Below, in pieces: positions 3,573 to 8,754 of a DNA stretch of 64,000 nt (positions within the stretch are counted from its first letter, which is position 1; each line of letters begins with the position of its first letter). The notes under the pieces are model-generated. The model did no database searches, had not been told where the DNA came from, and worked only from the letters and a program-made list of their open reading frames with translations. The DNA comes from Flavisolibacter longurius (GTDB lineage: Bacteria > Bacteroidota > Bacteroidia > Chitinophagales > Chitinophagaceae). The stretch is taken from positions 62,001 to 126,000 of the forward strand of contig JABUMY010000002.1 of the NCBI GenBank assembly GCA_013327885.1. The letters are read 5' to 3'. The translations under genes were made by a program, and so were the position numbers.

Positions 3573-3999
3573 CCCGGCCCTTGCAGGCCGGGCTGATATA
3601 TGTCGCCCTTTCAGGGCTAAACATAAAAAGCAACAGGCTCCCGAGAAGCCACGTGTTTATAGTAAATTTTCTAAAGAGAAGAAAAGAGCTCAATAGATTC
3701 AAGCCAAAGAAAGGTATAAAAGCAAATTGGAATTAAAATCGAACATCAGACAAAGACCCCGAAGGGGTCACCTGTTAATAGCCCGGGTGAAACCCGGGGA
3801 ATGGTTAGCAATACCGAACAACGACCCCAAAGTGGGTCGAACAGCAGCGCTAAAGAATTTAAAAAAAATGCCCGATGCTTTCCCAGTGAAGAACAGGCAT
3901 TATACATTCGTCACTCCTGCTCTCTATCGTTCGACCCCTACGGGGTCGGGTGAAAATGGTGTTGTTTTTTTTCTACCAAGGTGTGGCTCCTACGGAGCC
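3573..3999. repeat. cluster of REP-like short palindromes in a gene-free stretch
   Basis: The roughly 800-base region from 3433 to 4188 contains no convincing gene. It holds at least seven perfect or near-perfect short palindromes: CCCGGCC-CTTGCA-GGCCGGG (3573-3592), GCCCTTTCAGGGC (3605-3617), GACCCCGAAGGGGTC (3755-3769), CCCGGGTGAAACCCGGG (3782-3798), GACCCCAAAGTGGGTC (3823-3838), GACCCCTACGGGGTC (3933-3947) and GGCTCCTACGGAGCC (3985-3999). Three share a GACCCC arm. The arrangement is like clustered REP elements. Open frames through it (for example 3727-4083) are an accident of the repeat composition. Confidence 0.65.
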
Positions 4000-6211: not shown

Positions 6212-6988
6212 TCAGGGAAACAGGGATTCGGCAATGGCCACGCTTTCGGGTTTGCCCACATCGATCACTTTGTTTTCGGTATGATCAAAGCCTGCGATCT
6301 TATACCGTGGTGCCATGGAAAGATAAACATCGATCAGCGAGAACTTACCCGTTTGCGTGATTGCATCAAAAACGGTGGGCTCAAAAAGGGCGATACCGCT
6401 GTACGCTTTTTGTATATAGGCATCGGCCTGCACGGCAATGCGTTCAATGAGCGAAGGGGCCGTATTGCGCCAGCCGCACAGCCGGTTGTATTCATTAAAA
6501 AGAAGGTACCGCGATGTTGGCCGGTCGCTCACCGCCAGTGAAATATCCGCTCCATGCTGCTGGTGAAAGCTTAAGAAGGCTTTGAGATTGGTATCGGTAA
6601 GAATATCAACGTTGATGGTTAAAAATGTACCGCCCTGCAAGTGTTCTCTTGCTTTCAGCAGGCCGCCGCCGGTTTCCAGCACAGCGTCCCTTTCATCGCT
6701 GACGATGATATTGCTGCCCCAGCCTTTTGCCTTTTCAATGGCATCGGTGATCTGGTCGGCAAAATGGTGCACATTCACCACCACATCGGTAAAGCCGTAC
6801 TGCTGCAGGTATTCTACATTGCGTTGCAAAAGCGATTTACCATTCACCACGGCCAGCGCCTTTGGATGCTTATCGGTCCAGGGCTTAAAACGGGTGCCCA
6901 GGCCAGCGGCAAAGATCATGGCACGACCGGCCCCTTGTCCCCCGGTGGGAGAACTTAGACCGATGTTTTCTTTTTTATCTTCTGTCAT
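6212..6988 (-). CDS. nucleotidyltransferase, MurU-like (MurNAc-1-P uridylyltransferase family)
   Basis: The core begins AMIFAAGLGTRFKPWTDKHPKAL, the nucleotide-binding signature of sugar-phosphate nucleotidyltransferases, followed by a sugar-site ETGGGL and a C-terminal INVDILT/DRPTSRYLLF region. Neighbouring an AmgK homologue points to MurU, which makes UDP-MurNAc from MurNAc-1-phosphate in peptidoglycan recycling; a mannose-1-phosphate guanylyltransferase is the alternative. Relatives start directly at the MIFAAG strand. Here the frame extends upstream through LSSPTGGQGAGR, encoded by a G/C-rich intergenic repeat (6927-6957). The start at 6988 (MTEDKKENIG) is chosen because it follows nothing better; in-frame ATGs at 7033 and immediately before IFAAGLG are alternatives. 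Confidence 0.82.
   Translation of the reverse strand: MTEDKKENIGLSSPTGGQGAGRAMIFAAGLGTRFKPWTDKHPKALAVVNGKSLLQRNVEYLQQYGFTDVVVNVHHFADQITDAIEKAKGWGSNIIVSDERDAVLETGGGLLKAREHLQGGTFLTINVDILTDTNLKAFLSFHQQHGADISLAVSDRPTSRYLLFNEYNRLCGWRNTAPSLIERIAVQADAYIQKAYSGIALFEPTVFDAITQTGKFSLIDVYLSMAPRYKIAGFDHTENKVIDVGKPESVAIAESLFP
6927..6957 (-). repeat. G/C-rich repeat copy inside the MurU-like gene 5' end
   Basis: Its reverse complement starts CTAAGTTCTCCCACCGGGGG and matches the 31-base segment at 7113-7143 with about three differences. It encodes LSSPTGGQGAGR at the N-terminus of the nucleotidyltransferase. Confidence 0.75.
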
Positions 6989-7112
6989 TTCCTTAAGCTC
7001 AATCGTTTTGTTTTTCAATCCGCGACATTTCATTTTGGATTTTCACCCGGTTGGTTTGGTTTCTTCTCCTGTTATTGTAAAGGAAAAGTCACCGGCTTCA
7101 ATGACACAACCA

Positions 7113-7143
7113 CCTAGGTTCCCCCACCGGGGGACAGGGGGCC
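7113..7143 (+). repeat. G/C-rich repeat copy at the 3' end of the AmgK-RapZ gene
   Basis: Starts CTAGGTTCCCCCACCGGGGG; inverted with respect to the copy at 6927-6957. The kinase-RapZ reading frame runs into it, ending NGPLSPGGGT, and its TAG stop is supplied by the repeat. Confidence 0.75.
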
Positions 7144-8754
7144 GTTCTTCCACCCCTTCGCTTCCTGCTCCCTGTGGCACAGTTCCACTTTCACTTTGTA
7201 TTTGCTGCGCAGGTGTTTGGCCATGGCATCGGCCGAATACACGGAACGGTGCTGGCCGCCGGTGCAGCCAAAGTTGATGGCCAGGTGGTCAAAGCCACGC
7301 TTGATGTATTCTTCCACGGTAATGTCAACAATATCAAATACGCTGTTCAAAAAATCCTGGATGCGGGTTTGTCGCTCGAGGTAGTCCATCACCGGCCGGT
7401 CGCGGCCATGGATTTCCTTGTACTCCTGGTGACGGCCCGGGTTGTCGATGCCGCGGCAGTCGAACACAAAGCCACCGCCGTGCACACTGCTGTCTTCAGG
7501 TATGCCTTTCCGGTAGGAGAAGGAACAGATCTTTACGACCAGCGGTGTTTCTTCATCGGCTTGAATAGGCGTGAATCGCTCGATCACTTCATCAGCAATG
7601 CACAACTGCAATACTTTCTTAAACTCGGGTACGGCAATGCCAAGACTGTTATTCTCCACAAACCATTTGAGGTTTTTCAGCGCCTGCGGAATAGAGGTAA
7701 GAAACTGCGCCTTGCGTTCGAACAAGCCGCGAAAGCCGTAGGCACCCAACACCTGCAGGAGGCGGATCAGTACAAAGCCGTTGTACTGGCTGCGAAACAC
7801 ATCGCGGTCGATGCCGTTTTCCACCACGGCCTCAAAATGATCGATATAACGTTCCAGCAGGGAGTCTTTCCATTCGTCGGGCAGATTGGCCCTTGCCTGC
7901 CAAAGCATACTTGCCACGTCGTACTGCGGGGCGCCTTTCATACCGCCCTGGTAATCGATGAAGTTTACGGTATGGCCCCCTCCCGAGCTTCGCTCCCAAC
8001 CTGCGGTTGCCCCGGTGTGGGAGTGATCCACTGCACCGGCCCCGCTTTGCGACGTGGTTGCGTTCTGTTTAACCTCTCCGGCAGGCGAGGGATGTGCGTG
8101 GGCTGTTCCCCCTCCACCGGAGGGGGTTAGGGGGAGGCCGGCTGTTACCATAATGTTCCGGCTCTGGCAATCGCGGAACATAAAGTATTTGTATTCGGTA
8201 TGGGTAAGATAGGTGCTTAGCGCTTCAAAATCGTCTATCAGGTTTTGCTTGTCATAAGGCTTGCGCAGGGCATCCAAAAAATAAAACTTAAAATAAAGCA
8301 GGTCGGCCATGATGGCCTGCTTGCCAAACTCTTTGTTGGTGAGGCATTTTTCGTAGTTCAGTCCTTCATCACCTTTTACCTGCAGCCTTGCCAGTTGCTT
8401 CAGGCTTTCGTCAAAGAGGTCGTACACTTCCTGCGTATAGCCTTTTTCTTCCAGCACATCCAGCAGCGACACATCGCCAAGGTCCTCCTGCAGGTAGATG
8501 GTCTTGTCGTAGCTTACGGCCACCACTTCCGGTACAGGAAGGGACTTTTGCCTGAACTGGTTGGAGAAATAAACAAAGGTTTCATTCTCCGCCACGTTCA
8601 GCCCGTAGGTGCCAATGACGGTTTTCCCGGCCTTGTTGTGCAATCGGAAGTAGCGCCTGTCGCTACCCGACTGTGGCAGCACATCAACCCTTGCCGGTTC
8701 CTCTTCGCACCAGCTTTTGTATAACTGCGATACTGCATTAATTAATTCCTGCAT
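7114..8754 (-). CDS. AmgK-like sugar kinase fused to RapZ C-terminal domain
   Basis: 546 residues from MQELINAVSQLY (an ATG seven codons upstream is less likely). Residues about 10-370 form an aminoglycoside-phosphotransferase fold: QSGSDRRYFR, the catalytic-loop FRDCQSRNIMV, and the metal-binding strand NFIDYQGG. AmgK phosphorylates MurNAc or GlcNAc at the anomeric position and works with MurU, whose homologue is the next gene. Residues about 405-535 match the RapZ C-terminal domain (SYRKGIPEDSSVHGGGFVFD, FGCTGGQHRSV), known in E. coli to sense GlcN6P. An abnormal 55-residue segment (about 206-260) between the catalytic loop and the metal strand is repeat-derived. The C-terminus also ends in repeat sequence. 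Whether the kinase remains active is unknown. Confidence 0.88.
   Translation of the reverse strand: MQELINAVSQLYKSWCEEEPARVDVLPQSGSDRRYFRLHNKAGKTVIGTYGLNVAENETFVYFSNQFRQKSLPVPEVVAVSYDKTIYLQEDLGDVSLLDVLEEKGYTQEVYDLFDESLKQLARLQVKGDEGLNYEKCLTNKEFGKQAIMADLLYFKFYFLDALRKPYDKQNLIDDFEALSTYLTHTEYKYFMFRDCQSRNIMVTAGLPLTPSGGGGTAHAHPSPAGEVKQNATTSQSGAGAVDHSHTGATAGWERSSGGGHTVNFIDYQGGMKGAPQYDVASMLWQARANLPDEWKDSLLERYIDHFEAVVENGIDRDVFRSQYNGFVLIRLLQVLGAYGFRGLFERKAQFLTSIPQALKNLKWFVENNSLGIAVPEFKKVLQLCIADEVIERFTPIQADEETPLVVKICSFSYRKGIPEDSSVHGGGFVFDCRGIDNPGRHQEYKEIHGRDRPVMDYLERQTRIQDFLNSVFDIVDITVEEYIKRGFDHLAINFGCTGGQHRSVYSADAMAKHLRSKYKVKVELCHREQEAKGWKNGPLSPGGGT
7975..8139 (-). repeat. 165-bp in-frame repeat element inserted in the kinase gene
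   Basis: Low-complexity G/C-rich block with imperfect inverted ends: GGCCCCCTCCC on the left and, read inwards from the right, GGCCTCCCCCTAACC. It encodes Gly/Ser/Thr/Ala/His-rich residues with no similarity to kinases. Its length is exactly 55 codons without stops. The inner hairpin CCCCCTCCACCGGAGGGGG resembles the copies at 6927 and 7113. Confidence 0.75.

Follow-up and report, generated by a model that had tools for sequence, protein, structure and literature searches.

A probable palindromic mobile element lying in frame in loops of Flavisolibacter enzymes

The stretch of DNA analysed here (64,000 nucleotides, hereafter the window) encodes a kinase whose gene contains a block that is very probably a copy of a non-autonomous palindromic mobile element, a Bacteroidota counterpart of the RPEs of Rickettsia that is tolerated in the loops of essential proteins. 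In support of this we observe an element family and its sites, the keeping of the host reading frame, empty sites in sister species and little amino-acid constraint on the encoded residues. Rickettsiales are the best-known carriers of in-frame palindromic repeats, which weak selection could account for there; the accessible part of one report also describes scattered REP insertions in further phyla (PMC3733652). The present family comprises dozens of insertions that lie mid-protein in core enzymes, and the genus has cultured members. Because close relatives carry filled and unfilled sites, and enzymes that naturally have the insert can be paired with ones that lack it, site choice, frame choice and the cost to the enzyme are directly testable.

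The kinase insert

The initial annotation placed the block between the catalytic loop and the metal-binding strand of the kinase with no interruption by a stop, and the kinase ORF does run through it (Table 1). The block is G/C-rich, sits between FRDCQSRNIMV and NFIDYQGG, and encodes about LPLTPSGGGGTAHAHPSPAGEVKQNATTSQSGAGAVDHSHTGATAGWERSSGGG. Its extent had been given as 165 bases (7975..8139); a covariance-model match falls there, but with the GGCC end the element spans 166 bases. In F. longurius, whose kinase is 94% identical and the closest named relative among the matches listed, the same place reads FRDCQSRNIMV-SGDK-TVNFIDYQGG, a four-residue turn. Since this orthologue has SGDK at the site, the block amounts to a net gain of 54 residues rather than the 55 first counted; counted alike, the loop has 63 residues in the window and 9 in F. 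longurius.

Table 1. Positions of the element, its host gene and adjoining features in the window
Feature	Position	Strand	Basis
Palindromic element, GGCC to GGCC, 166 nt	7974..8139	-	Covariance-model match; 28-copy alignment; gap against F. longurius and other orthologues
5' (coding sense) hairpin CCCCCTCCACCGGAGGGGG	8108..8126	.	Stem scan
Core motif GTCGCAAAGC (family form TTCGCAAAGCGAGG)	8044..8053	-	Alignment and sequence
3' (coding sense) hairpin region with 21-nt extension, common to the own-genome MetH and E1a copies	7974..8024	.	
Host gene: APH-fold kinase (AmgK-like) with RapZ C-terminal domain, 553 aa	7114..8775	-	Pfam, NCBIfam, fold match
RapZ C-terminal domain of host kinase	7165..7539	-	PF22740, residues 413-537
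Catalytic loop FRDCQSRN, intact	8155..8178	-	R, D, Q, S, R, N invariant in 39 orthologues
Metal-binding strand FIDYQGG, intact	7942..7962	-	F, I, D, Q, G, G invariant in orthologue alignment
Nucleotidyltransferase gene adjoining the kinase	6212..7033	-	Pfam NTP_transf_3, 4.2e-13
Short related hairpin at nucleotidyltransferase gene start	6925..6958	.	Inverted repeat I1
Short related hairpin at kinase 3' end; supplies last codons and stop	7114..7147	.	Inverted repeat I1, ORF end

A family covariance model, trained on 28 copies with the window copy among them, was run over the whole window. It matched 7975-8139 (plus strand, E 5.6e-7) and 7993-8139 (minus strand, E 3.8e-21), and at E<=1 gave no match other than these two at the kinase block. 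The predicted DNA fold of the window copy is only moderately stable (-39.7 kcal/mol, z -1.81). The inner CCTCCACCGGAGG of its 5' hairpin was also found elsewhere in its own genome by a pattern search.

An AlphaFold2 model of the kinase (39 sequences) has a mean pLDDT of 82. Residues 214-266 fall below 50 and lie between strands 208-212 and 268-272, at the turn past the catalytic loop, and the insert is accordingly predicted to be disordered. With respect to exposure, the model of the kinase alone presents it as a low-confidence loop flanked by two strands. Each in-frame copy of the element probably adds such a floppy loop of about 50 residues.

Copies in the genome and anatomy of the family

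The genome to which the window belongs (G000; 52 contigs totalling 5.75 Mb, in the genus of F. longurius) contains further copies, a point that the initial annotation had set as a check. The genus was taken to be Flavisolibacter because genomes G006, G007 and G009 have 1,100-nt stretches identical to F. longurius (BT320), Flavisolibacter sp. RYN_287 and F. nicotianae (X7X). Plain blastn gave 25 matches, namely the window copy, three over 125-160 of the 183 query bases, all in frame, and shorter ones that mostly cover one query end alone. When the encoded peptide was used as query, seven matches were obtained, of which six are convincing and lie within long ORFs; such a search sets the reading frame by its nature. 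Diverged copies also came up in the peptide searches and the covariance-model search. Their hosts are the kinase, MetH, two E1-type ketoacid dehydrogenases, an HsdR-type restriction subunit and a ligase-associated DEXH helicase. Together with UvrA and IcmF (the latter with core and 3' hairpin only) they bring the identified host genes in this genome to eight; two strong copies (L081 and L083) are intergenic. In G013, HsdR carries element-like sequence (L057) at a different place from that of the own-genome HsdR (L013 type), with a second repeat-like stretch, AHPDLPEGKATNTQP, immediately ahead of it.

The layout of the family is a hairpin, a conserved core and a second hairpin between consensus GGCC ends, over about 140-165 bp. 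Most copies are about 140 bp long and the longest is 166 (about 139-166 nt among the 28 aligned copies); lengths modulo 3 are not constant. The core has the family form CACACAGCCCTCGCCTG..CGGAGAGG...TTCGCAAAGCGAGG..GTG, and GGCC stands at the start of 16 and at the end of 17 of the 28 aligned rows. As the 5' and 3' hairpins have complementary GGCC-type ends, each unit consists of two inverted palindromes, and the alignment shows terminal inverted repeats able to form stem-loops, the structure and size by which RPEs are recognized. The 5' hairpin is one of a few types that differ among copies, a mixture that suggests recombination between elements.

Intergenic relatives with similar ends and other cores were also seen, some of which hold, by eye, terminator-like hairpins followed by T runs. 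Seven of them (L252, L253, L258 [G015], L254, L261, L264 and L267) have a similar 5' hairpin with part of the core, a terminator-like stem and T runs. Their sequences look as if the element had captured, or turned into, a transcription terminator.

Distribution in the genus and the family

A peptide profile (E<=0.01) found 42 matches in 10 of 148 genomes, these being the own genome, seven more from the genus and two from elsewhere in the family-level sample; eight of the 42 lay outside any ORF of 150 codons. The covariance model, which is blind to frame, had matches in 14 of the 18 genomes of the genus (E<=0.1). Scoring of the top 150 candidates in each genome gave 54 distinct sites of at least 60 bits in eight of the 18, and all were read. 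Protein genes with an open frame hold 42 of them, in the sense direction in 41 cases; the single antisense copy lies in the error-prone DNA polymerase of F. nicotianae. In-gene sites had at least 60 codons on either side, except for CysJ, which was included with 44 codons on one side; reading placed L236 and L088 among the intergenic sites. The element had been described as an intergenic repeat. That fits 12 of the 54 strong copies, but the family in the genus is mainly intragenic (42/54) under a model that, being built mostly on in-gene copies from the peptide search (25 of the 28 training copies), favours such copies. Several genomes in the survey are incomplete or fragmented.

Hosts in the census include MetH, UvrA, LeuRS, PurH, RlmD, MiaB, IspG, GcvP and DnaE. 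F. longurius has inserts in MetH, E1b and the DEXH helicase, among others, and F. nicotianae in E1b, RlmD and RecQ. NCBIfam names PurH, GcvP, CysJ, AcsA, UvrA, LeuRS, RlmD, MiaB, IspG, RecQ, NadE, IcmF, NadB and tryptophan dioxygenase, as well as ThyA and AlaRS in other genera, with some scores under the curated cut-offs and three of 30 proteins without a match at E<=1e-10. In a family sample of 147 genomes, for which the best 22 candidates per genome were scored, matches at E<=1e-4 occurred in 17 genomes from 14 of 100 genera. Outside the genus 26 of the listed sites, in eight genomes, were read; 16 lie in ORFs (50-codon rule) and 10 are not in a clear gene. Stops within the element were seen in copies located outside genes. 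The element thus appears to spread in the soil bacterium Flavisolibacter and, patchily, in other Chitinophagaceae. A phage or plasmid origin was rejected, as the MetH copy had no blastn match in the phage or plasmid collection (E<=0.01), and so was an Rfam family, with no match at gathering thresholds for six loci.

Reading frame

The core codons TCG-CAA-AGC are in register with the host in 37 of 44 in-gene ORFs. In the other seven, six found by the peptide search and one (L243) by the covariance model, the best match of our script fell off a worn core. As 34 of the 44 ORFs came from the peptide search and are conditioned on frame, only the ten found by the frame-blind covariance model test it freely; nine of these are in register, and L243 could not be placed.

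Taking the host frame as '+0' by definition, we compared it with the frames that are not used. Over the 105-nt core stretch at least one other frame is open in 39 of the 44 ORFs; for frame +1 on the sense strand, which is not used, this holds in 24 of the 44 copies. Mean hydropathy is -0.79 in the used frame, -0.64 (+1) and -0.68 in the unused sense frames, and 0.19 to -0.26 in the reverse frames. Hydropathy thus sets the reverse frames apart and does not separate sense frames +1 and +2 from the used one. Because the reverse frames are less hydrophilic while the unused sense frames are nearly like the used one, selection against stops and hydrophobicity accounts for part of the frame bias; the choice of frame is not fully explained by which frames are open and hydrophilic.

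Filled and empty sites

Alignment of homologues, proposed earlier as a check, confirmed that most kinase orthologues lack the long element. Among 100 distinct loop sequences 79 are short, two hold the long element and 19 are other loops of 14-26 residues, and since most orthologues are without the insert, a conserved domain was rejected. G000 and G011 have a long element in this loop, at the same position; the kinases of F. longurius, F. nicotianae and G008 are without the long element. In a tree from the kinase, part of MetH and E1b, G000 and F. longurius are sisters with F. nicotianae next, and G011 pairs with G008 in another part of the genus (support 1.0). Since the filled G011 is sister to the empty G008 and far from G000, the kinase was probably entered separately in two lineages. 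Independent insertion is the simplest reading; the alternative is one ancestral insertion followed by several precise losses.

A second, shorter kind of in-frame palindrome is found in the kinase loop. Seven of the 21 long loops contain a perfect single hairpin, e.g. CCCCTCC..GGAGGGG, in other Chitinophagaceae records. Such hairpins are translated as TSPSTGGGLGEA, TPPSEGLGEA etc. (L111, L132, L134, L148, L154, L155 and L166).

Other hosts show the same pattern of filled and empty sites. Of 16 genomes compared for MetH, only G000 and F. longurius carry the element and 14 lack it; G013, where the two pieces are about 480 bases apart, was left out of this comparison. In G010, G012, G015 and G016 there are 8-17 extra residues at the empty site. 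The UvrA loop is filled in G000, G003 and G011, has a diverged insert in G007 and is without the element in F. longurius (nine of 16 genomes matched the search expression and seven did not). In the E1b linker the core is present in five of 16 genomes, with G005 perhaps a sixth, worn copy. In E1a the loop that is filled in G000 also holds an element in genomes from four further genera, and F. longurius is without the element (loci of six relatives were tried, of which five matched).

Some loops hold more than one insertion. In the E1 of G149 a tandem pair of elements lies within one loop, in frame (L420), and one UvrA loop of G011 holds a single-hairpin-like piece followed by the element (L240). 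Unrelated repeat-like insertions occur at the element's loops in E1a of F. longurius (GSSQYAVGSTE, L300) and E1b of G015 (YAARYTLQEGREAYSVQREA, L279), from which these loops seem to take several kinds of repeat.

Divergence, selection and alternative readings

For four pairs of orthologous genes, dN/dS values of the element are 0.083/0.087, 0.437/0.612, 0.348/0.346 and 0.438/1.131 (ratio 0.39 to about 1.0), and the flank dN values, in the same order, are 0.032, 0.044, 0.038 and 0.066. The element exceeds its flanks in dN by a factor of about 2.6 to 10; with the flank dN low, this places the element under little amino-acid constraint and the host gene under strong constraint. The residues of the insert thus diverge with little or no amino-acid constraint in the four pairs. 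Amino-acid conservation of the encoded peptide was rejected on a separate measure, since first, second and third codon positions are equally variable (0.503, 0.483 and 0.490; 30 columns in 43 of the 44 ORFs).

These data also bear on the possibility that each insert is a functional domain or a regulatory loop, acquired a single time and selected for the protein's sake. The filled UvrA, E1, RlmD, AlaRS, MiaB and PurH loops in several species or genera are compatible with it, as is the strong preference for one frame, but the same peptide stands in unrelated proteins, F. longurius is without the element in the kinase, E1a and UvrA, intergenic copies exist, and both the excess of element dN over flank dN and the equal variation of codon positions speak against selection on the peptide. 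We consider this explanation improbable.

Slightly less probable still is that self-splicing as an intron, intein-like excision or ribosome bypassing disposes of the element, before translation or after it, and leaves a protein without insert. Bypassing elements are known from other systems, and a structured palindrome within essential genes would suit such a process. However, the frame is open across the 42 in-gene copies, which RNA-level excision or bypassing would not need, and at about 50 residues the insert is, to our knowledge, shorter than any known intein. The six loci gave no Rfam match at gathering thresholds, and neither Pfam match of the kinase falls within the insert.

That the insertions mark decaying pseudogenes is hardly credible: an insertion beside an active site seems damaging, and UvrA might be spared, since a relative with 48% identity is encoded at another place in the genome, but the kinase and the C-terminal part of MetH are each the sole genome match at E<=1e-20, catalytic residues are intact, flank dN/dS is low (e.g. 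MetH 0.032/0.955) and stops are seen in copies outside genes.

Under the preferred reading, a mobile element tolerated in protein loops, the age of the copies can be considered. In each of the four pairs the element has a lower dS than its flanks, by about tenfold in MetH (0.087 against 0.955; G000 and G006, L010 and L052), and the MetH element is either far younger than the species split or undergoing homogenization. Because neutral drift after insertion does not explain so low a dS, gene conversion, re-insertion at the same site or constraint at the DNA level is needed. The 21-nt extension is present in the kinase, MetH and E1a copies of G000 and missing from the MetH copy of F. longurius, a pattern that fits conversion; loss in F. 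longurius would also produce it. As to the earlier suggestion that the in-frame insert is a case of protein tinkering, the existence of genome copies and its absence from most orthologues support it. A wider version, in which tinkering continues across Chitinophagaceae, with an element carrying its own 'safe' frame and re-entering the same permissive loops of essential enzymes (the kinase, UvrA, E1, AlaRS, RlmD, MiaB and PurH) in separate lineages, copies overwritten by conversion or re-insertion, and segments of unrelated enzymes evolving in concert, is a tentative proposal that we think somewhat more doubtful than not. For UvrA, AlaRS, E1, MiaB, PurH and RlmD, filled loops are seen in several species or genera.

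Movement of the element

We envisage a non-autonomous element family of 140-165 bp that spreads in Flavisolibacter and patchily in other Chitinophagaceae. A copy landing in a protein loop so that the frame is kept would be translated as a flexible stretch and tolerated, and other in-gene landings would be purged by selection. The insert would be retained in the protein, the host enzymes would be functional and the element may still be moving, perhaps by a transposase of the Y1/RAYT type acting in trans.

The own genome has eight Y1_Tnp (PF01797) matches. None has element-like flanks within 200 nt on each side, where other palindromes are found, and blastn of three element copies against these flanks gave matches of 12-15 nt only. 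A RAYT of this genome as the mover was rejected on this basis (0/8), and a RAYT-like mover in trans is at most putative. Comparison of filled and unfilled kinase and MetH sites gave no clear or constant target-site duplication, and a search covering PF01797 found no parent IS.

Relation to known repeats

The accessible parts of three reports describe RPEs as lying in frame within Rickettsia ORFs and between genes, with a conserved peptide at exposed positions; a guanylate kinase bearing an RPE was active, and orthologous RPE sites are common to, or differ between, species (PMC10969869, PMC2229807, PMC3767692). To judge from such partial sources, RPEs (RPE-1 to RPE-3 especially) and the Wolbachia palindromic elements are alike in being palindromes of about 100-150 bp, in frame in conserved genes and also intergenic. 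The present element differs in having two GC-rich hairpins around a core and in its intragenic share, 42 of the 54 strong sites, compared with the 'nearly half' reported for R. conorii in the part of PMC10969869 at hand. Its hosts are Bacteroidota (Chitinophagaceae) with cultured members rather than Rickettsiales, and for that reason we say that it works like an RPE, in an unrelated phylum, and not that it is one; the likeness is one of behaviour, and membership of the RPE family is not claimed.

REPs offer a second comparison. According to the accessible text of PMC3733652, intragenic REPs or REP dimers lie in frame in several species, many in DNA-repair genes, with double REP insertions in O. 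terrae uvrA genes; over half of the intragenic inserts encode 20-30 residues, and CGTC repeats are reported in Bacteroidetes. REPs and REP dimers (GTAG/CGTC; Opitutus terrae, Thioalkalivibrio, R. conorii), so far as that text describes them, resemble our element in being in-frame palindromes and inverted pairs with UvrA as a target; the G011 UvrA loop, with its hairpin-like piece ahead of the element, is comparable to the O. terrae double insertions. Here, in contrast, the inserts are mostly about 45-55 residues long, the taxa are others and the ends are GGCC; neither GTAG nor CGTC is among the commonest six end sequences at either end of the 28 rows, in which GGCC is commonest. The two-inverted-palindrome unit of a REPIN/RAYT dimer is thus present, but the GTAG/CGTC tag and a cognate own-genome RAYT were not found.

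QMITE1/2 of Coxiella and ERIC are, in the available portions of PMC5896051 and PMC10969869, small inverted-repeat elements of the non-autonomous kind, able to form in-frame fusions with genes. The Coxiella fusions described there are at gene ends or in hypothetical proteins, whereas ours are mid-protein and in core enzymes, and our element is without a parent IS or target duplication that we could find. Among the open-licence PMC papers listed for our searches, judged on titles and abstract starts, none deals with such elements in Flavisolibacter or Chitinophagaceae. The kind of element is already known; the family, the phylum and the recurrent use of loops look new as far as the literature was searched.

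The host kinase and its neighbour

The host kinase matches APH (3.4e-7) and PF22740 (1.1e-34) in Pfam and AmgK in NCBIfam (9.4e-12, well under the family cut-off). Foldseek of the model returned aminoglycoside-phosphotransferase-like and related kinases, with 3csv as the best match, and also RapZ; a sequence search likewise returned RapZ and 3csv. As the catalytic residues and the RapZ domain are kept in the sequence, the kinase is probably still active. Both domains are covered by 38 aligned orthologues from Chitinophagaceae and relatives. The arrangement of a RapZ C-terminal domain on an AmgK-like kinase suggests, from domain content, that amino-sugar sensing may take place within a recycling enzyme.

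The adjoining nucleotidyltransferase is presumably MurU-like. Its MIFAAGLGTRF stretch suggests that the true start may lie near 6922. Shorter related copies had been noted at the ends of this gene pair. The two hairpins, with 34-nt arms that are 88% complementary, are of the same type as in the insert, but they bracket the spacer from the kinase stop to the nucleotidyltransferase start rather than the outer ends. The pair was rejected as a further family copy because the family covariance model gives no match. Elsewhere in the window two G/C palindromes, CCCGGCCCTTGCAGGCCGGG (3573-3592) and CGACCCCTACGGGGTCG (3932-3948), lie about 350 bases apart and look like those beside the own-genome Y1_Tnp genes (L043-L048).
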